The notes beneath the pieces are model-generated. The model searched no databases and was not told the origin of the DNA. It saw only the letters and a list, made by a program, of their open reading frames with translations. 20,748 bases of DNA, taken from IMG/VR virus record IMGVR_UViG_3300007734_000447, positions 1 to 20,748 of that record, one strand, 5' to 3'. The number at the start of each line of letters is the position of its first letter. Within the stretch, counting starts at the first letter, position 1. Positions 5,121 through 20,748 of this stretch are shown here, one piece after another. Position numbers and translations under genes: made by a program. The stretch comes from a virus.

Positions 5121-6113
5121 TCAGCTCCTGTTCGTATTCATGCGGTCATATTCTGCGTACTTGCGAATCATTTTATTGCGGTCGGTGATGTTATCCCACC
5201 TACCCGCATCTTTGATCGCCCTTACGCGCTCGGGGGAAACCCGGAATTCGCCAGCGCGATTCCCAGATGTTGCTTCCCTGCCTGAGCTTGTAACCACGGA
5301 ACGAGGCCTCCTAGAGGATGATTTGTCTTCACTACCCCCATTATAATGGTGTGGTAGGTACTTTGTCAATCTATTATCCAACTCCTCCCAGTAATCGGAG
5401 GTCGTCGGATCCCAGCCTTCGGCTACGAGCGCTTCGTCGACTTTTGTCGCCACTTGGCTGTCCATGTCTTTCCCGTTGGGGTCGTACCAGCCATTTCGCG
5501 CCATCCAGTCACCCGCGTGGCGTTTTAGAAGGGGGTCTTGAGCTTTCGGAACCGACGAGCGGGTAGGCTCGCTGACCGCCTTCTTTTTCAGAGCCTCCAA
5601 CGCCTCCACCTGACGCCTCGCGTCGTACCAAGACTCATTCGCCTCGGCCAACGCCGCCCCGTCAGCCATTTCCGTGGCCTCTTTGAGCTTCATCTTGGAG
5701 TATTGGAGTCGCAAATGACCATCTTCAATAGCCTTGTCCAATCGAGCGAGGTCCGAACCCGCCGTTCGCTTCTCCAAGACGGATAAGCGCTCGGCCATCT
5801 GTTCATTCTGACGCTTCAAATTGGTGATCAGATGGGTCGACTCGTTCTGCTTAGCCCTCGAAAGCTTTTTCTTAAGCTGTCGCTCCTCTCGACGGGCTAA
5901 TCGGAGTGATTCTCGGGCTGGATCGGCATGTGGAATATTGTCGGAGTTATCCTCCGGATCATCCGAATCATCCGAGTTGGCTCGACCACCCGTTTTGAAA
6001 CCCTCTTGACCCCCGCCGTCATCCTGCGGGGACTCTCCCTCGGGTAGGGAAACCACGGCAGAACCATCCGGCTCCTCCGCGAGTTGCAAATCTATCTTTT
6101 CAGTCGGATTCAT
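5121..6113 (-). CDS. Probable head scaffolding protein
   Basis: A 330-aa, highly charged protein. An acidic disordered N-terminus (1-65, with SDDSDDPEDNSDN) is followed by long heptad-rich coiled-coil helices (about 66-118 and 120-178). A small folded part contains RNGWYDPNGKDMDSQV, and the C-terminal 65 residues are basic and helical. A helical rod with a basic C-terminus that can bind coat protein is the layout of P22-type scaffolds. Its position between portal and capsid genes agrees. PDGSAVV (15-21) recurs in the portal N-terminus, and FKTGG (39-43) matches a motif in other virion genes. The start overlaps the stop of the GroES-like gene (ATGA). No protease signature is visible. Scaffold is inferred from architecture and synteny. 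Confidence 0.75.
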   Translation of the reverse strand: MNPTEKIDLQLAEEPDGSAVVSLPEGESPQDDGGGQEGFKTGGRANSDDSDDPEDNSDNIPHADPARESLRLARREERQLKKKLSRAKQNESTHLITNLKRQNEQMAERLSVLEKRTAGSDLARLDKAIEDGHLRLQYSKMKLKEATEMADGAALAEANESWYDARRQVEALEALKKKAVSEPTRSSVPKAQDPLLKRHAGDWMARNGWYDPNGKDMDSQVATKVDEALVAEGWDPTTSDYWEELDNRLTKYLPHHYNGGSEDKSSSRRPRSVVTSSGREATSGNRAGEFRVSPERVRAIKDAGRWDNITDRNKMIRKYAEYDRMNTNRS

Positions 6114-6544
6114 AGGAATGCCTTTACTTTCAATGGGTCACCCGTAACTTTTGCAATTACTTCGTGATCGTTAAAAACGCTAAAGAGTGCGGTTTCGCCC
6201 AATGTCTTGTCACCATAGATGACTTCCCATCGGTCTCCACCCCATTTCGGCATACGAACGTAGTCGCCGATTTCCACCCAATTACCCTCGGGCCATGGCT
6301 CGAGTGTGTCGCGCTTCTTGAAAGCTAGCGGGCCAATCGCGATGATTTTTGCCACCTGATTGTTCCACTTTTCGGTTTCCTTAGTCTCCTCGACGAGTAC
6401 AATTCCTGAGCTAGTGACAGTCTTTCGGGTCTGTCTCCACTGGACGAGAATCCGTCCACCTACAGGTAAAGCACCGGGATTAACGTCAGGAAATGCTTCC
6501 CGCAGCGCAGCTTCATTCGAAGCTTCCGGTTTATTATCGCTCAT
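6110..6544 (-). CDS. GroES-like (Cpn10) co-chaperonin
   Basis: A 144-aa protein expected to cap the host GroEL ring and help fold virion proteins, as gp31 does in phage T4. Diagnostic features are PVGGRILVQWRQT (27-39) and a flexible loop ending SGIVL (46-50), equal to the GroEL-binding mobile loop with its hydrophobic tripeptide IVL (48-50). The strand AKIIAIGP (65-72), the segment WVEIGDYVRMPKWGG (89-103) and a C-terminal FSVFNDHEVIAKV strand complete the Cpn10 pattern. It is longer than bacterial GroES (about 95 aa) because of an N-terminal extension and an inserted LEPWPEGN turn. No GroEL gene is present in the window. The stop overlaps the scaffold start, and the N-terminus overlaps the preceding 62-aa gene by 11 bases. 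Confidence 0.85.
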   Translation of the reverse strand: MSDNKPEASNEAALREAFPDVNPGALPVGGRILVQWRQTRKTVTSSGIVLVEETKETEKWNNQVAKIIAIGPLAFKKRDTLEPWPEGNWVEIGDYVRMPKWGGDRWEVIYGDKTLGETALFSVFNDHEVIAKVTGDPLKVKAFL

Positions 6545-9440: not shown

Positions 9441-10658
9441 CTATTCGAAGCCGTACTCGCTGATATCGCGTGCTGTCCGCATCATTTCTCTGTACTTATT
9501 GGGGTCTACGTTGCGGATCTCGCGCAATGGGTCACGCAATGATTGCACCGAACCTTCACCTTCGTGCCTCATCATTTGGCGCAATACCTCGGACGACGGC
9601 AAGCCCTCGCCCTCAATCTCAATAGACGCGGGGTCTTTCATGTGGCGTGCGATTGACTCAATGTCGTACGGCTCGGGCTTTCCACCACGGGTAGACATGG
9701 TGCGCACAAAGTCAATGGCTTCGTCCACACTCATGCCCTTGGACAACGCTAACGCCATGAGGCCTTGCGCGGTAGAAGGTAGCGCGGCGGTTGGGGCAAC
9801 GGCTTTGACCACCTCTCCCACGTTCGGTATCAACCCGGTGGGCAATGCGCCTTGCAACGCTTGACTGACGGCACCCTTGAGCACGGTTCGGCGCGACGTC
9901 GGGGTGGCAGCTACCGATTTCAACGTGGACGCCACTTTACCCGCACCCGGGTCCACCGTCGTCGTTTTCTCCGTCACCGCTGGTGCACCCCGCAGCCCTT
10001 TGTCCATCTCCTGCAGTGCTTTATCGTCGATTTTCGCTAGCGGGAAGTCCATCGGTGGCTGGGCTTTAAGTCCAAACAGCGAGCGGCGGCTCATGTTCGG
10101 GGTCTCGACTTTCACCCCTTTGGCCATTAACTCCGCTGCCATCTGGTCCAACGTCTTCTTCACCCCGCCACCACCCGCGTACAATTGATCGGGTATTAGC
10201 TGCCCGCCGTCGCTCATGTCCGGGGTCGTGTGGTCAACCACCACCCCGCCCTCCGCATAACGTTGGGGCGCTGCCCGCATCTCGTGCCTCGCCGTCGATT
10301 CTGGTGCGAAATCCGCCCGACGCGTGGCAGTCGCCGGGTCGTGCGATTTGCCGCTGCGCTGCTTGAGCATCTCCTGCACCACAAGCCTTCGCAGCACCGG
10401 GTCCGGGAATCGGGACTCGAAATCCTCGACTGCCCTTGCCCTATCGAACTCCGGGTACTCGGTTGGCGGCTCGGCAAAAGCCCGCTGCTTGGCCGATGCT
10501 GCATTGCGCTGCTCGAAGTCCATCTGTGGCCCGGCGTTTGTCTCCCCCGAGTACGCCGCCATTGCGAGCGGTACGGAACTGCGAAACCCCGCGAATAGCG
10601 TGGTCGCGTCGATTGGGTCCATGCCACTCAGGATTTCATCGATCGGGTTACTGGGCAT
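9441..10658 (-). CDS. Unknown 405-aa phage protein with two internal twin-arginine-like motifs
   Basis: A protein of unknown function between large terminase and portal. The N-terminal 120 residues are helical and charged. A Gly-rich stretch follows with RYAEGGVVV (133-141) and LYAGGGGVK (159-167). Two motifs resemble Tat signal cores, SRRSLFGLK (190-198) and SRRTVLKGA (255-263). The second is followed by a mildly hydrophobic Ala/Leu/Gly/Val stretch (264-290). The C-terminus (300-405) is acidic and helical. True Tat signals are N-terminal, so these may mean something else. The start overlaps the terminase stop by 11 bases, so translation is coupled. A virion-internal or ejection protein, or an assembly factor, is possible; no homologue is recognised. 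Confidence 0.75.
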   Translation of the reverse strand: MPSNPIDEILSGMDPIDATTLFAGFRSSVPLAMAAYSGETNAGPQMDFEQRNAASAKQRAFAEPPTEYPEFDRARAVEDFESRFPDPVLRRLVVQEMLKQRSGKSHDPATATRRADFAPESTARHEMRAAPQRYAEGGVVVDHTTPDMSDGGQLIPDQLYAGGGGVKKTLDQMAAELMAKGVKVETPNMSRRSLFGLKAQPPMDFPLAKIDDKALQEMDKGLRGAPAVTEKTTTVDPGAGKVASTLKSVAATPTSRRTVLKGAVSQALQGALPTGLIPNVGEVVKAVAPTAALPSTAQGLMALALSKGMSVDEAIDFVRTMSTRGGKPEPYDIESIARHMKDPASIEIEGEGLPSSEVLRQMMRHEGEGSVQSLRDPLREIRNVDPNKYREMMRTARDISEYGFE

Positions 10659-12081
10659 ACGGATTTCCTCGATTTGGTCTGTACTCGTCGTCCACGTAGT
10701 CGTTGTCCAGCGGCTCCGGGTCGATGTCGAGGAAGGACATATCTTTTAGCAGCCGCAGTGCTTGGCTTAGCGTATCGGTCAGGTCGTCCCGCTCGGATTC
10801 GGGGAATGAGCACACCTGACTGACCAGCGCCTCTGCCCAATCCCTCGGCTGGCCCCGGTGCACGAGCGATTCGGGGACGTAGACCCGGCCATGTGCGATG
10901 ATGTTGGCCACCAAATGCAACCGTTGCACTTTATCGGCTCGCCCCGGGTTGTAGGCGCGGCACGGCACCCCAGCGCGTTGCAGGTCTTGCAGGATGCTAA
11001 TACCCGAGGCTTTGTCCTCGACGAGCACCAGATCCACCTTTTTACCCGGCTCGCCGTAGATCGATTTGTACTCCTCAATGATCTTGGGTCGCAAATCCGG
11101 GTACGCGAGGAAATCCTCCCAGCAGTCGATGAGCATGGCGCACAGCTTGCTGTCGTCGTTCGGGCGGAAAATACCCCAGACACTACAAGCAGTCGGATCG
11201 TTCTGCGTCTTCTCGGTGTACGCGCAGTCGTAGGACTGGAGCACGTAGATGAACTCGGGCAGTGCACGGTCCGCGTCCCAGAGCTTAAACCAGTCACGCT
11301 TCACGATGCCATAATCTTCGGGGTCGATCACCTCGGCGTACAGCTCCTGCCGCCCGATTCGTGTGCCCTCGTACTGCGAAATTATCTCGTCCCTGAATGT
11401 GGGTGCGAGGTTATTGAAATTCTCGTGCGTCGTGCCCGTGGTCACTAGCACCCGCTCCTCGCTAATCAGCCGTCGCACGATCGGGATCGGCTTGGGCGTC
11501 GTCGTGATGCACACTCGCGGGCGTTGCCCCAGTCGCAGCCCAAACATCAGGTTGGACCACATGCTTTCCGCGTTGCGGAATTTCGCCAACTCGTCCACCC
11601 ATGCCAGATCGTGCTGGGGTCCGCGCAGCGTCTCGGGGTCGTTGTCCGAGTAGATCGTAGCGATCGCCCCGTTTGGCCACTCCACCCGGCGTTTCGATGG
11701 GACGAATATCGGCTTGCACTTGGGGTGCGAAATAGCGAGCAGCCCGCTTTCGCCCTCGATCATCACGTCGCGAGCGTCGCCCGCATCCTCAGCAATCAGC
11801 GCGATTCGACCCGCCAGTTTGTTCTCGACGTGATACCGGACAAATTCGGCACCACACCGGGTTTTGCCCCACCCACGACCCGCGAGGATGAGCCAAATCG
11901 TCCATTTCTCCCCGTCCGGGATCGTCTGATTGTACCTCGCCCACGTCGGCCAGTCGTAGTAAAGCTCGAGCGTCTCCCGATCCGACAACTCCGACACGAA
12001 CTCGTGCCAGTTGTCGGGGTCAAGCGGCGGCTTACTCTTCCGCCTTTGACTTCGAGTTGAGCCGTTGGGCGAGACGATCAC
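10648..12081 (-). CDS. Terminase large subunit (Terminase_6-like ATPase-nuclease)
   Basis: A 477-aa motor that cuts concatemeric DNA and pumps it through the portal. Walker A is AGRGWGKT (67-74), Walker B is DLAWVDE (158-164), and TTTPKP (193-198) fits the coupling motif. The RNase H-like nuclease part has SYDCAYTEKTQNDPTA with Asp 285, LVLVEDKASG with Glu 355, and DLTDTLSQAL with Asp 436, so the acidic triad looks intact. The length is normal for the family. The GTG at 12081, with GAGG 6 bases upstream, is the best start; it overlaps the small terminase gene by 50 bases. The next in-frame ATG lies after Walker A and would destroy the ATPase. It lies directly after the small terminase gene, as in most tailed phages. 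Confidence 0.93.
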   Translation of the reverse strand: MIVSPNGSTRSQRRKSKPPLDPDNWHEFVSELSDRETLELYYDWPTWARYNQTIPDGEKWTIWLILAGRGWGKTRCGAEFVRYHVENKLAGRIALIAEDAGDARDVMIEGESGLLAISHPKCKPIFVPSKRRVEWPNGAIATIYSDNDPETLRGPQHDLAWVDELAKFRNAESMWSNLMFGLRLGQRPRVCITTTPKPIPIVRRLISEERVLVTTGTTHENFNNLAPTFRDEIISQYEGTRIGRQELYAEVIDPEDYGIVKRDWFKLWDADRALPEFIYVLQSYDCAYTEKTQNDPTACSVWGIFRPNDDSKLCAMLIDCWEDFLAYPDLRPKIIEEYKSIYGEPGKKVDLVLVEDKASGISILQDLQRAGVPCRAYNPGRADKVQRLHLVANIIAHGRVYVPESLVHRGQPRDWAEALVSQVCSFPESERDDLTDTLSQALRLLKDMSFLDIDPEPLDNDYVDDEYRPNRGNPYAQ

Positions 12082-12703
12082 GGAGACCCTCGATATTGAT
12101 GGTTGAATCCAACGAGCCGGACACGTTCATGTTTACTTCTTTTGACCGGAATTTAGCGTCGTACCCCATGAGCGTGAACTGCAGCAGCCCGTCGCTGAAT
12201 TTCTTCACCGTGTCGCCCGTGCGTAGCCCTTGGTGCGTCAACGGCTCGTCGTGTCCGACCACGGATCGCCGGTACGCCTCAGCCCGCATCGTGTCGACCA
12301 TCTCCTCTTGGATCATCTCCATGAGCGAGTCGAACATTTTGTGATCCCCTCGCCACGCGATAATCGTAGCACGGACAATGCCCGCCGTCGTATACGCGTG
12401 CCTCATGCTAAATTTCGAGTCATCGGGTCCGTCCCGGAACTCGGCAAGCATGATCACCATTTTGTACGCTTTGGTCTCCTCGTGCTTCTTCAACTCGCCT
12501 TTCGCGGCGATCGTCGGGTCGTTGCACGTCAGCGAGTGCGAGAGATTTGAAGAGCCACTGGGCGGGAGTCGGATCCGATCACGGATGATAGCGTCGAGCA
12601 GCGTTTGCGCTGAGACCCCGGCGCGTCGCTCGTAGTCAGCGAGCGTCTCCTTGCCGATTTGGTCGAGCGTCGTTAGATCATCTTGGAAAGCCATAGAATG
12701 CAT
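12032..12703 (-). CDS. Probable terminase small subunit
   Basis: A 223-aa protein. The N-terminus (about 20-42, LADYERRAGVSAQTLLDAII) fits a helix-turn-helix for recognising the packaging site. The long central helices fit an oligomerisation domain. The C-terminal DEPLTHQGLRTGDTVKKFSD, then LLQFTLMGYDAKFRSK, matches the small-terminase pattern of EP(x)nG ... SDxLLxxxLxxxxPxxYR. The length is at the upper end of the family. Two starts are close, ATG 12703 and ATG 12694; neither has a clear Shine-Dalgarno, so the start is uncertain by 3 codons. It overlaps the large subunit by 50 bases and follows the repeat-rich region that may hold its binding site. Confidence 0.75.
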   Translation of the reverse strand: MHSMAFQDDLTTLDQIGKETLADYERRAGVSAQTLLDAIIRDRIRLPPSGSSNLSHSLTCNDPTIAAKGELKKHEETKAYKMVIMLAEFRDGPDDSKFSMRHAYTTAGIVRATIIAWRGDHKMFDSLMEMIQEEMVDTMRAEAYRRSVVGHDEPLTHQGLRTGDTVKKFSDGLLQFTLMGYDAKFRSKEVNMNVSGSLDSTINIEGLRDRLAQRLNSKSKAEE

Positions 12704-12786
12704 TAAAACACGAACGACGCGATTGGCACAACCCTTGTGTTTGTACGCGGAATCGATGCAGAGAAGCTATGGCCAAGCCACACCCA

Positions 12787-12838
12787 ATAGTCGGGAGCTA
12801 TAAACTATCGGCAGGTTCTAGTCGATAGTCGGGGACTA
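12787..12838. repeat. Pair of ATAGTCGGG direct repeats
   Basis: ATAGTCGGGAGCTA (12787-12800) and ATAGTCGGGGACTA (12825-12838) agree at 12 of 14 positions with starts 38 bases apart. The second is itself an inverted repeat (ATAGTC/GACTAT around GG), and a degenerate inverted ACTATCGG lies between them (12804-12811). Such paired sites usually bind a dimeric protein. They lie 84-135 bases upstream of the small terminase start. Confidence 0.6.
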
Positions 12839-12920
12839 TTGCAGTCGTGCGCGTACACGAGGCATCTAAGATGAAGCCCCATGTGGTGGTTTAATAATTC
12901 TTGCTGTCTGAAGCTTGAGA

Positions 12921-13168
12921 TGGAACGCTCTTTCCATTCGAGAATCTTCGTCCTGTTCCATCGCCGATCGGAGTGATGGAACAGCCTCTTCCATTCGAAG
13001 ATCGGTACTTTTGTACCATTGTTCCACCGTTCCATTACTTCTCGTTCAATCGTAATCTCGTAACCTCGACCTCACCCCCGTGTGCATGTGTAACAATGGT
13101 ACAGAGCCTCTTTTTTCGAATGGGGAGTGCGTTCCATTGGTTGTTCCATCTTGATGGAACAGTGGAAC
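12921..13168. repeat. TGGAAC/GTTCCA repeat cluster with alternative hairpins
   Basis: TGGAAC or its complement GTTCCA occurs at 12921, 12955, 12977, 13021, 13029, 13131, 13143, 13155 and 13163, with a variant TGGTAC at 13097. GTTCCATC/GATGGAAC forms perfect 8-bp inverted repeats at 12955-12982 (12-base loop) and 13143-13160 (2-base loop). TGGAA/TTCCA arms pair at 12921-12936 and 12977-12993. A longer imperfect unit, TGGAAC-(n)-CTCTTCCATTCGA, starts at 12921 and 12977, with a degenerate copy from 13097 whose end carries the complement TCGAATGG (13116-13123). Confidence 0.8.
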
Positions 13169-13199
13169 GCTTTGTGGGTTCCGTTGGGTGTGATCACCC

Positions 13200-13220
13200 C
13201 GGAGTGCGTTGCACACTCCG
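13200..13220 (-). promoter_or_regulatory. 5'-terminal hairpin of the terminase leader transcript
   Basis: A CGGAGTG/CACTCCG perfect 7-bp stem with a 7-base loop, beginning about one base after the predicted transcription start of the promoter at 13228-13257. There is no T-tract, so it is not a terminator. It may stabilise the 5' end of the RNA or bind a regulator. Confidence 0.5.
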
Positions 13221-13227
13221 AATCCGT

Positions 13228-13257
13228 ATTAAACCATAGCCTCCCGCAGTGCGTCAA
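13228..13257 (-). promoter_or_regulatory. Probable promoter for the packaging/head operon
   Basis: Minus strand: TTGACG (13257-13252; 5/6), 18 bp, then TTTAAT (13233-13228; 5/6), with an extended -10 TGG in front. It lies inside the 3' end of the nuclease gene, whose stop codon overlaps the -10 box. Transcription would start near 13221 and produce a leader of about 515 bases before the small terminase gene. Confidence 0.6.
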
Positions 13258-13657
13258 TTAACCCGTCCGTGGTACAGTCACGCTTCACCAGCATGACCCC
13301 TTCGCGCCTCCATCGGGCTTGGTCCCACGTGTCGATCGCCCCACCGACCCGGGCGGCGTTGAACACTGCAATTTCCCCGTCGATTTGCACGATGAGCCAC
13401 CCGCTCGCTCCCGCTGCGTTGAGTCTTTGCATCCAGTGGCGTTGCCCGACGGTCCAACCCGGCAATCGGACCGGGGTGGTGGCTCGCCGGGGCCAGCCCT
13501 CGAGTGCTTTTAACTCCACCCACCCGTGCTGCCCGGGCAGCGCGATGTACAGGTCCGGGGTGTCCCGTTTCACCTCGTTCTCGACCCTTTCGAGCATTCC
13601 CCGGTGCCCCAGCCGCTGGTTCAGCCAGTCCCACAGCCGCTGCTCGGGGTGCCTCAT
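13229..13657 (-). CDS. PD-(D/E)XK-type nuclease (VRR-NUC / resolvase-like)
   Basis: A 142-aa protein with the compact nuclease core: helix with Glu 27 (MLERVENEV), strand with Pro-Asp 34-35 (TPDLYIALPG), and strand with Glu 48-Leu-Lys 50 (GWVELKALEG). The motif E...PD...ELK fits VRR-NUC and Holliday-junction-resolvase-like enzymes that cut branched or flap DNA using magnesium ions. A Trp/Arg-rich middle follows, then a QIDGEIAVFNAARVG strand. The length suits a stand-alone single-domain enzyme. The start overlaps the preceding stop (ATGA). Debranching replicated DNA before packaging is the likely role, as with T4 gp49 or T7 gp3, inferred from family and from its position just before the terminase genes. 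Confidence 0.75.
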   Translation of the reverse strand: MRHPEQRLWDWLNQRLGHRGMLERVENEVKRDTPDLYIALPGQHGWVELKALEGWPRRATTPVRLPGWTVGQRHWMQRLNAAGASGWLIVQIDGEIAVFNAARVGGAIDTWDQARWRREGVMLVKRDCTTDGLIDALREAMV

Positions 13658-15641: not shown

Positions 15642-16181
15642 TTATACGCTCGCTGCCTCTTGCTTCAGGGCGCGACGCAGCATGTTGCCCAGATTCATGC
15701 GCTGCATACCGGGGTTCAGCCGCTCGAAGCGTTGGCGCAGACCCGCCACCGAGGTGCCCGTGGCACCCGATGCCGTCTGGTACACCGCATCGAGGGTCAG
15801 GCTGCGCAGCAGCAGCGCCACGCGGTCGCCCTTGTCTATCGACCGCTTGGTGGTGCCATCGGGCAGCTGCGTCGCGTAGCTGCTGTAGAATTGCAGGTAC
15901 AGCGGGTCGACCCGGCCATTTTTGCGATCTTCGATCGCCATCTTCACCCGGGGTGCCGGGGCTGCACGGTCCGCCTTCACCGTGGTGCGGGTCGATTTCG
16001 CTGCCTCGGCCAGCGCGTATTCGCGGACCGTCTCGCTCACCACCTCGGTGAATTTCGACAGTGCGCCATTGCGCACCTTGCGGCAGCTGCTCTGGCCCGG
16101 GCTGCGGATGGTGGTCCAGCCGCCGTTGACGGAGACAATAACGACTTGCTGGCCGGTGGTAGCGTCTGTAGCGATTTGCAT
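15642..16181 (-). CDS. Protein of unknown function, 179 aa
   Basis: It starts MQIATDATTGQQVVIVSVNG with ATAGAGGAAA (16195-16186) 4 bases before ATG 16181. The N-terminal 25 residues look like a small strand-turn-strand. The middle is basic (SCRKVRNGALSKF; KSTRTTVKADRAAP). The C-terminal half is helical, with RVDPLYLQFYSSYATQLPDG and RFERLNPGMQRMNLGNMLRR. The basic linker and paired helices could bind nucleic acid, but I recognise no fold. It is first in the cassette behind the promoter at 16241-16269, whose transcript starts with a hairpin. This would suit strong early expression, which is inference. Confidence 0.7.
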   Translation of the reverse strand: MQIATDATTGQQVVIVSVNGGWTTIRSPGQSSCRKVRNGALSKFTEVVSETVREYALAEAAKSTRTTVKADRAAPAPRVKMAIEDRKNGRVDPLYLQFYSSYATQLPDGTTKRSIDKGDRVALLLRSLTLDAVYQTASGATGTSVAGLRQRFERLNPGMQRMNLGNMLRRALKQEAASV

Positions 16182-18734: not shown

Positions 18735-19962
18735 TTGCAGCCACCAGCCCGCCCGCCTTGTACCGACCCTTGTACCCCTCGGGTGGAGCGCCACGCACCA
18801 TGCTATCGGCTATCTCCTCCGGGGTCTCCCCTTGCAACATCCTCCAAACCGTTTCCTCCGTCGTTAACTGCCGCCCCAAAGTTTGCGGACCAAATGCCCC
18901 TTCGAGCCGACCCGGGTTGGCAATTATCGACGGCTCGGCCACTTGCTGCAGCATCGCCCGATTCGTGGCATCCATATCCCCAAATCTTGGTGAAGCCCGC
19001 GCTCCGGACATTTTGGCGGGACCGTATACCCCAGCGAGTTGGGCCTCTCTCAGCATTAGGTACCCAAGTTGCTGTTCGGGTGTCATATTTAGCACGTCCA
19101 ATGGTCGTGTGTCGACCGCCATCATTCGCATCACCTCCGGACCTGTGTAGCCTCGCATTAAAACGGGTGATCTTGCGCCGGAAAACACCTTCTCCAGATA
19201 ATCAATCTCCGGGTCGGCATCCCTGACTGGTACGCTGAATGCTTGGCTTGAATACCCGCCGCCCGATTCGCTAATTGGTGCGACAAATTTGAGATCCCCA
19301 TGTCCTATACCATGCGAGGCTACATTCCCAAGGCGACGTGGTATATTAACATCGGTCAGTATGTCCGCTGCGTTTCCCGACCCGCTCGCCCGCAGCATAT
19401 CGTACATCGCGGCGTACATCTCTTTCCCTTTGGCGGGTAATCTGTCGTACCATGTCGCTTGTATTGCGCCGCCCCGGGGCTTGACGGACATTGCATCTAT
19501 CCCGTACATACTGGGGAGATTGCCCGTGAATGGCCCATTCACGGCTGCTTGACGCATCCGGTTCTGAATCTCTGCGTTCATTTTCTGGCTAGCCGGAATC
19601 TGTTCCGAGTAAAATCCTAGTCGCGGGCCATAATCACCGGGGTGTAGATTCGTCGGATTTGCTGGAATTTTGCTCTCCGGGTCTAACCTGAGCATTCCCC
19701 TCTGTGGCATTACCCCCGGCCTAGCGCGATCGCCGACAAGTGTACCACGGATTGGCTCGCCCGTTTCCGTCTTGCCGAAGAGCTGGTTGCGGTTGTACTG
19801 GTCAAGCACTTCGTCCCGCGTCATATTGCGTTGTGCTGATCGCAACGCGGGGTCTATGCGCTGCGCACCCGGCAAAGCTGCGATCTCGGTGTGTACCCCG
19901 CCTATACCGCCCAACAGGTCGTTGAATGATACGGGTTTCTTACCTTTAAACCATGCTGGCAT
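18727..19962 (-). CDS. Large unknown phage protein with YKAGG tail
   Basis: A 411-aa protein with no domain I recognise. It is rich in Met, Gly, Pro and Arg (GGVHTEIAALPGAQRIDPAL; NRMRQAAVNGPFTGNLPSMY), with no membrane helix. The DYLEKVFSGARSPVLMRGYT, NMTPEQQLGYLMLREAQLAG and LTTEETVWRMLQGETPEEIA segments look like short helices. It ends YKAGGLVAANA, matching a [FY][KA]xGG motif in four proteins of the head module. ATG 19962 overlaps the deacetylase gene by 17 bases, and GAGGTG lies 5 bases upstream. Size, composition and shared tail suggest a virion or ejected protein, though it lies outside the head module. No confident role. Confidence 0.7.
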   Translation of the reverse strand: MPAWFKGKKPVSFNDLLGGIGGVHTEIAALPGAQRIDPALRSAQRNMTRDEVLDQYNRNQLFGKTETGEPIRGTLVGDRARPGVMPQRGMLRLDPESKIPANPTNLHPGDYGPRLGFYSEQIPASQKMNAEIQNRMRQAAVNGPFTGNLPSMYGIDAMSVKPRGGAIQATWYDRLPAKGKEMYAAMYDMLRASGSGNAADILTDVNIPRRLGNVASHGIGHGDLKFVAPISESGGGYSSQAFSVPVRDADPEIDYLEKVFSGARSPVLMRGYTGPEVMRMMAVDTRPLDVLNMTPEQQLGYLMLREAQLAGVYGPAKMSGARASPRFGDMDATNRAMLQQVAEPSIIANPGRLEGAFGPQTLGRQLTTEETVWRMLQGETPEEIADSMVRGAPPEGYKGRYKAGGLVAANA

Positions 19963-20748
19963 CGTACACCTCGTCTGATATCTTCAGTGTCTGCACATGT
20001 ATATCCACCGTGTCTTGCATTGGATCCGCGTAGCCCCCCGCCAGATTCCACACCACCGGGATCCCTGCCCCCCGTGCCGCAGTGAATATTCCCCTGTCCC
20101 GTGCCGCGAGTCCCTCAAGTGTCAAATATCCCGCCCCGTATGGGTCTTTCTCCCACGCGTCCGCTCCGGCCTGATAGAATATTATACCCGGTTTGTGGTA
20201 CCGAATCAAGCTACGCGCAAATACTTCCCACATCTCGACGTTCCAGCTCGACTGGATGCCCCGCCCCAGACTGGGTCGGGTGATATTGGACACTCGATCT
20301 TGCAGCTCGGCGTAGTGCCTAATTATTTCGTTGGTCCCGTCCCCCTCGTGCCCATCCCCGTCGATGATTACCACCCGACCTATATCGTGTGCCCTCAGCA
20401 CCTTAGCCGCTGCGATCGCCAGCCCGTTGAATGTGCAGTACCCATACCCCTGATCCCAGCTCGCATGGTGGAATCCTTGGGAGGCTGAGCAAGCCACGCC
20501 ACCGTAAACTAGGACGTGCTGCACTGCCGCCCAGAACGACCCGTTCGAGTACCTAAGCGAGTCGTTCAACTGCGCATCGGTATTGCCGAACCCGTTCTGG
20601 GTCGTGCCCTTGAACACCCGATCGACGTACCCCCGGTCGTGCGCTAAGTAGAAATCCTCAATCTCGTAGGGCTTGAACAGGTGCGGGAGCCTGTTGCTCT
20701 GGCGTACGAATTCGGGGATCTTGTTCACCGATATAAAATCGTACTGAA
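19946..20748 (-). CDS. Histone-deacetylase-family amidohydrolase (HDAC / acetylpolyamine amidohydrolase), 5' end cut
   Basis: A zinc amidohydrolase that removes acetyl groups from amines such as acetyl-lysine or acetylpolyamines. Frame is open to the right edge; a GTG at 20728 occurs in frame, but codons before it stay open and fit the fold, so the start is probably outside. Numbering from that GTG: GFHHA (His 87, His 88), DGDGHEGDG with zinc ligands Asp 125 and His 127, QAGAD with zinc ligand Asp 190, and AGGY with the catalytic Tyr 233. All six key residues are present, so it should be active. His 127 is followed by Glu where most HDACs have a second His. The stop overlaps the next gene. 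Substrate cannot be read from sequence; the family is unusual in phages. Confidence 0.88.
   Translation of the reverse strand, partial: QYDFISVNKIPEFVRQSNRLPHLFKPYEIEDFYLAHDRGYVDRVFKGTTQNGFGNTDAQLNDSLRYSNGSFWAAVQHVLVYGGVACSASQGFHHASWDQGYGYCTFNGLAIAAAKVLRAHDIGRVVIIDGDGHEGDGTNEIIRHYAELQDRVSNITRPSLGRGIQSSWNVEMWEVFARSLIRYHKPGIIFYQAGADAWEKDPYGAGYLTLEGLAARDRGIFTAARGAGIPVVWNLAGGYADPMQDTVDIHVQTLKISDEVYDASMV

Follow-up and report, generated by a model that had tools for sequence, protein, structure and literature searches.

In the satellite phage P4, the alpha primase-helicase binds type I iterons at two loci, ori1 and the distant crr. In phage lambda the iterons are confined to a single place within the initiator gene, and classical iterons are spaced by roughly 21 bp. 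In the core origins of SV40 and the papillomaviruses, short sites are paired in direct and inverted orientation, and loading is by double hexamers. Lambdoid phage origins with O-protein iterons are also described, for example for Shiga-toxin-converting phages (PMC7466680).

The locus considered here is a dense cluster of TGGAAC/GTTCCA sites in a 20,748-bp IMG/VR fragment (the whole stretch analysed, hereafter the window) from a parent phage of roughly 57 kb. Its phage family resembles P4 in having one short site arrayed at two separate places, a single replication protein as their putative reader, and primase-centred replication. It differs in site, spacing and symmetry, in its AEP primase with no helicase domain found, and in its second array, which is inverted and about 21 kb away; a P4-alpha-type primase-helicase as initiator, as at ori1/crr, was not found for this array family. 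With lambdoid origins it shares clustered candidate initiator sites in a phage replication region, but here there are two intergenic arrays, two-fold symmetric and with a direct spacing of 8 bp, which is also unlike that of classical iterons. Two of its blocks (A and D) recall the SV40/papillomavirus origins, since in each of them two short sites in direct and two in inverted orientation surround a dyad; however, no SF3 helicase was found, several such blocks are present, the motif is another one and the virus is bacterial. Finally, the Bradleyvirinae (DLP4, phiH1, Donnerlittchen, DoCa5) have a comparable long gene-free gap, from a P4-like primase to a related TerS, and some of the repeats in it (TCAGACgcTCAGAC, TTAGATgcTTAGAT) are spaced by 8 bp, but their core is TYAGAY, their primase is different, and any relation to the arrays described below is conjectural. 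The TYAGAY repeat lies before TerS (L159:2245-2420; L183:2590-3160, DLP4) and recurs about 21.7 kb away in DLP4.

Architecture of the repeat array

The initial annotation had drawn attention to nine exact copies of the site, far above chance, to two perfect hairpin-forming inverted pairs among them, and to their position directly before the small terminase (TerS), and all of this was borne out. The copies start at 12921, 12955, 12977, 13021, 13029, 13131, 13143, 13155 and 13163, where 0.18 are expected per 248 bp of the same composition (maximum of 2 across 3000 simulations); in 100 simulations of the whole window, the best 250-bp count was 4. The perfect pairs are 12953-12962 with 12975-12984, and GTTCCATC at 13143-13150 with GATGGAAC at 13153-13160. 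The description was nonetheless incomplete, as it omitted the near-copies TGGTAC, at 13097-13102 (plus strand) and 13013-13018 (minus strand), and TGTAAC, at 13089-13094, and the gene-free stretch extends from 12704 to 13228. Once these variants are counted, the array in the window (array 1) has twelve sites. Read in the TerS direction (large genes are read here on the minus strand), the order is block A, element x, block B, core, block C, element y and a degenerate block D, as follows (basis in brackets):

13229-13657, minus: VRR-NUC-type gene (PHROG 2165)
12704-13228 (525 bp), no strand: gene-free stretch holding array 1, between the VRR-NUC and TerS open reading frames
13163-13168, minus: site A1, GTTCCA in the TerS direction (exact copy; position conserved in relatives)
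13155-13160, minus: site A2, direct, 8 bp from A1 (exact copy; relatives)
13143-13148, minus: site A3, TGGAAC, inverted to A2 with a 6-bp spacer (exact copy; relatives)
13131-13136, minus: site A4, TGGAAC (exact copy; relatives)
13110-13125, minus: element x, CCCATTCGAAAAAAG, between blocks A and B (kept in most array-1 relatives)
13097-13102, minus: site B1, variant GTACCA (sequence; relatives)
13089-13094, minus: site B2, variant GTTACA, 8 bp from B1 (sequence; relatives)
13035-13088, no strand: core between B and C, a TGCACACGGGGG-type element, then an AT-richer stretch (spacing and GC)
13029-13034, minus: site C1, TGGAAC (exact copy; relatives)
13021-13026, minus: site C2, TGGAAC, 8 bp from C1 (exact copy; relatives)
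13013-13018, minus: site C3, variant TGGTAC, 8 bp from C2 (sequence)
12987-13003, minus: element y, TTCGAATGGAAG, mirror of x (direct repeat in window; relatives)
12977-12982, minus: site D1, GTTCCA (exact copy; relatives)
12955-12960, minus: block D site, TGGAAC; block D is degenerate in the window (exact copy; relatives)
12921-12926, minus: outermost block D site, GTTCCA (exact copy)
12032-12703, minus: TerS (PHROG 4044, E 2e-16)
10648-12081, minus: TerL

The AT-richness of the core is modest (47% GC vs 56-70% in its surroundings), and a long AT tract is not present in every array member. Among aligned relatives, elements x and y are, depending on the lineage, either CCCATTCGAA or a CCCCGtnnGACGSGG palindrome, and the latter type also occurs in both arrays of Acinetobacter phages. 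No covariance-model match was obtained for the window in Rfam at the gathering threshold, no tRNA was found in it, and a similarity search of the gap DNA against phage records gave no match.

Between the array and TerS, a smaller inverted-repeat set (ATAGTCGGGAGCTAT / GATAGTCGGGGACTAT, 12785-12848), which has TTATAAC or CTATCG versions at the same position in relatives, is perhaps an operator of the TerS operon. Elsewhere in the window, a 179-aa protein (15642-16181) has as its homologue a 229-aa protein of Acinetobacter phage SH-Ab 15497 and its relatives, which is annotated as an integrase in Bhz20 and has a conserved GMQRMNLGN end. In one relative (G002), the counterpart of the 19946-20728 protein has a histone-deacetylase domain and is encoded close to datZ and purZ, and a GroES-like co-chaperonin (6110-6544, PHROG 3188) lies inside the structural operon.

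Conservation of the layout and a second array

Searches of viral contigs with TerS and TerL yielded about 130 loci, and the array was present in nearly all of those having enough upstream DNA. Comparison with related phages, a check proposed in the initial annotation, found the repeats kept in the same gap in most of some 75 relatives, in a fixed 12-site layout that is two-fold symmetric about the AT-richer core, with 8-bp direct spacing. Where best preserved, this layout reads A >2>6<6<, B >2>, C <2<, D >6>6<2< (numbers are spacer lengths), so that A mirrors D and B mirrors C. It is kept upstream of TerS in relatives whose TerS is 56-79% identical, and 58 of 60 relatives keep B and C 69-72 bp apart. 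When 25 diverse members were aligned, nearly all invariant columns fell within sites, and the spacers were highly variable. Helical phasing is not claimed, because among the block distances only B-C is constant and the others are mixed.

Each whole relative examined contains two such arrays, which the initial annotation had not foreseen. In five whole relatives (G001, G002, G006, G010, G014), the two lie 20.7-21.7 kb apart in the shorter direction, alongside a few loose groups of three sites; a sixth (G012) likewise has two arrays, with TGTAAC sites. Array 1 precedes TerS, and array 2 occupies the gap upstream of the AEP primase that heads the replication operon. The arrays are mutually inverted, as the A-B-core-C-D strand of array 1 is directed to TerS and that of array 2 leads away from the primase, and their spacer sequences have diverged. 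The two-array status is based on about a dozen cultured genomes in addition to the six whole relatives.

A blind scan of 2.9 million viral contigs with one third of the layout (GTTCCA-N2-GTTCCA-N6-TGGAAC) placed the match at most 900 bp from TerS/VRR-NUC, or from the primase or its other neighbour, in 100 of 101 newly fetched loci; these loci are not all independent, because many come from contigs already found via TerS, but matches elsewhere would have shown. The sole exception (L305) was a lone match in an unrelated phage. In the six whole relatives, GC and AT skew had no consistent turning point or extreme at either array. Around array 2, a perfect TTGACA-17-TATAAT promoter-like site (L144:16836-16864) reads into the array, away from the primase, and a TTGATG-17-TATAAT site pointing to the primase (L161:2919-2974) is overlapped by one reading into the array.

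Association with the replication module

The primase of the window's relatives is a 517-520 aa AEP protein (Pfam AEP-TOTE; PHROG 21866, primase) with an AEP and a PriCT-1-like domain. Its AlphaFold model (mean pLDDT 68) supports the AEP domain, which matches those of CAPP and the S-2L PrimPol; the element order in the model, with no structural match, may be read as a winged-helix-like end at 436-499. The primase is accompanied by an SF2 helicase, Pam3 gp33- and gp34-like proteins, a UvrD-like helicase and PolA, and the same module includes a PurZ-like adenylosuccinate synthetase, a dATP/dGTP pyrophosphohydrolase and a DatZ homologue. An Acb2/Tad1 hairpin domain protein, of the anti-defence sponge type, also lies inside the replication operon of G002 (L142:9243-9572).

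The window-family primase is 41-45% identical to the primases of Klebsiella, Providencia and Salmonella phages and of SH-Ab 15497, in which biosynthesis of a Z-genome (2-aminoadenine replacing adenine) is established (PMC12884076). Two arrays were found in each cultured genome read, one just before the primase and the other about half a genome away, with sparser sites in Barton and JeffCo. Enterobacterial phages have the TGGAAC motif at 8-bp spacing, like the window, and Acinetobacter phages have GCAAC, GTAAC/GGAAC or GAAAC/GTAAC. The common core is GNAAC, with an N that varies by lineage and agrees in kind between the two arrays of one genome, as expected of one trans-acting reader.

The array follows this module independently of the terminase. 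The TerS and TerL of the cultured array-bearing phages were unrelated to those of the window by BLAST and profile comparison, whereas their primase, at 44% identity, and their helicases, PolA, SSB, PurZ and other proteins do match those of the window's relatives. Conversely, GNAAC arrays were absent from Bradleyvirinae with a window-related TerS and from a phage with a 47%-identical TerL, all of which have a different replication module. On this evidence, the array goes with replication and not with packaging.

To name the binder, residues were compared with motif in ten Acinetobacter phages forming three motif groups. Residues separating the groups were found in the primase (58, 77, 205, 458) and in the SF2 helicase (256, 485, 558), and none in TerS, gp33, gp34, UvrD, PolA or VRR-NUC; the association is weak, because TerL, h113, SSB, PurZ and others separate the groups too. 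The primase and the SF2 helicase would be the first candidates.

Putative paired origins and the alternatives

On balance, the cluster is probably the first of two paired, putative iteron-type replication origins or initiator-binding loci, and the origin with iterons is the best supported of the three ideas offered in the initial annotation. We infer that a phage-encoded DNA-binding initiator would recognise GNAAC-type sites (TGGAAC here, as well as TGTAAC and TGGTAC), arranged as inverted pairs and as direct pairs spaced by 8 bp, with about six sites to either side of the two-fold axis. Bound to both mirror halves, it would melt the AT-richer core between blocks B and C and recruit the AEP-type phage primase, the helicases and PolA. 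Array 2, which lies inverted some 21 kb away and heads the replication operon, would be read by the same protein, and the two loci may act as two origins, or as an origin and a distant accessory site. Counting against an origin are the skew, which gives no support, the modest AT-richness of the core, the site spacing that departs from classical iterons, the weak association of N with residues of any protein, the location of array 1 beside packaging genes in the window group and the fact that both arrays also precede operons.

This last point leads to the strongest rival, gene regulation, in which the arrays would be operator or enhancer regions through which a phage regulator controls both the late packaging/structural operon and the replication operon. 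It keeps this rank because promoter-like sites lie near the arrays, sigma-70-like promoters being found between array 2 and the primase (the TTGATG-17-TATAAT site) and before TerS in SH-Ab 15497, and 6-6-6 palindromes are typical of dimeric regulators. We nevertheless regard it as unlikely: the inverted arrays present different ends to the promoters, at differing distances, no promoter match was found in the window gap, and a set of ten to fourteen sites, held at a rigid core spacing of 69-72 bp, goes beyond what common operators need.

A packaging site, cos or pac, at which TerS would bind the array and the terminase would cut in or near it, had also been suggested, and is now very unlikely. 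Like such a site, array 1 has repeats in both orientations and immediately precedes TerS, both in SH-Ab 15497 and in the window group; moreover, the TerS model has a predicted helix-turn-helix-like helix pair at 100-120, and a pac site must exist somewhere in PMBT28, reported as a pac-type phage without defined ends (PMC6025938). Unlike a packaging site, however, the array does not co-occur with the terminase family, and its second copy lies beside the primase. Array 1 is adjacent to neither TerS nor TerL in K21lambda1, PMBT28 and Kokobel2, and contigs that end near the array do so at scattered positions, from 49 to 486 bp before TerS, with whole contigs running through it. These scattered ends, the pac-type report for PMBT28 and the distance from array 1 to the terminase in three phages are consistent with a link to replication rather than packaging.

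Two inverted copies about 21 kb apart that share their N base could also serve in partition, segregation or recombination, as homologous loci for pairing or genome inversion. This is highly improbable, as no partition gene lies next to the arrays among the families searched, the diverged spacers leave no long homology, and the relatives read all share one gene order.

Finally, a structured leader RNA, as the initial annotation had also considered, or DNA hairpins or a cruciform, working through folding of the inverted pairs, is hardly credible: the window strand does fold far better than shuffles (z -4.75), but a strong fold is expected of any inverted-repeat array, the covariation term is only -0.98 of -21.2 kcal/mol, the arms are nearly invariant, with compensatory change only at base N and, once or twice, at an outer base, mismatches at N are about as frequent as matched changes (few independent patterns, low power), and x/y pairing is lost where a lineage has y replaced. 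Arms without compensation point to a protein that recognises individual sites in DNA.

Returning to the putative paired origins, iteron origins as such are already known. The novelty here lies in the pairing of two conserved arrays, each two-fold symmetric, with sites spaced by 8 bp and a base specific to the lineage, among relatives of Z-genome phages. Since purZ lies outside the window, we infer production of Z-DNA by the window's own phage from the order of genes in its relatives. A bolder and rather unlikely proposal is that Z-genome phages start replication at these paired, inverted arrays, which the AEP primase, alone or with its SF2 helicase, would open by assembling symmetrically as six plus six, where Z:T pairs hinder melting, and that the N of GNAAC is a lineage-specific origin code keeping co-infecting phages from firing each other's origins. 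No replication origin of any Z-DNA phage was described in the literature searched, in which the opening of Z-DNA at an origin has been raised as a difficulty (PMC8342488). In cultured phages, SH-Ab 15497 and PMBT28 among them, the arrays provide precise, testable origin candidates, and the natural series of site variants (GGAAC, GTAAC, GCAAC and GAAAC) is useful for finding the protein that reads them.
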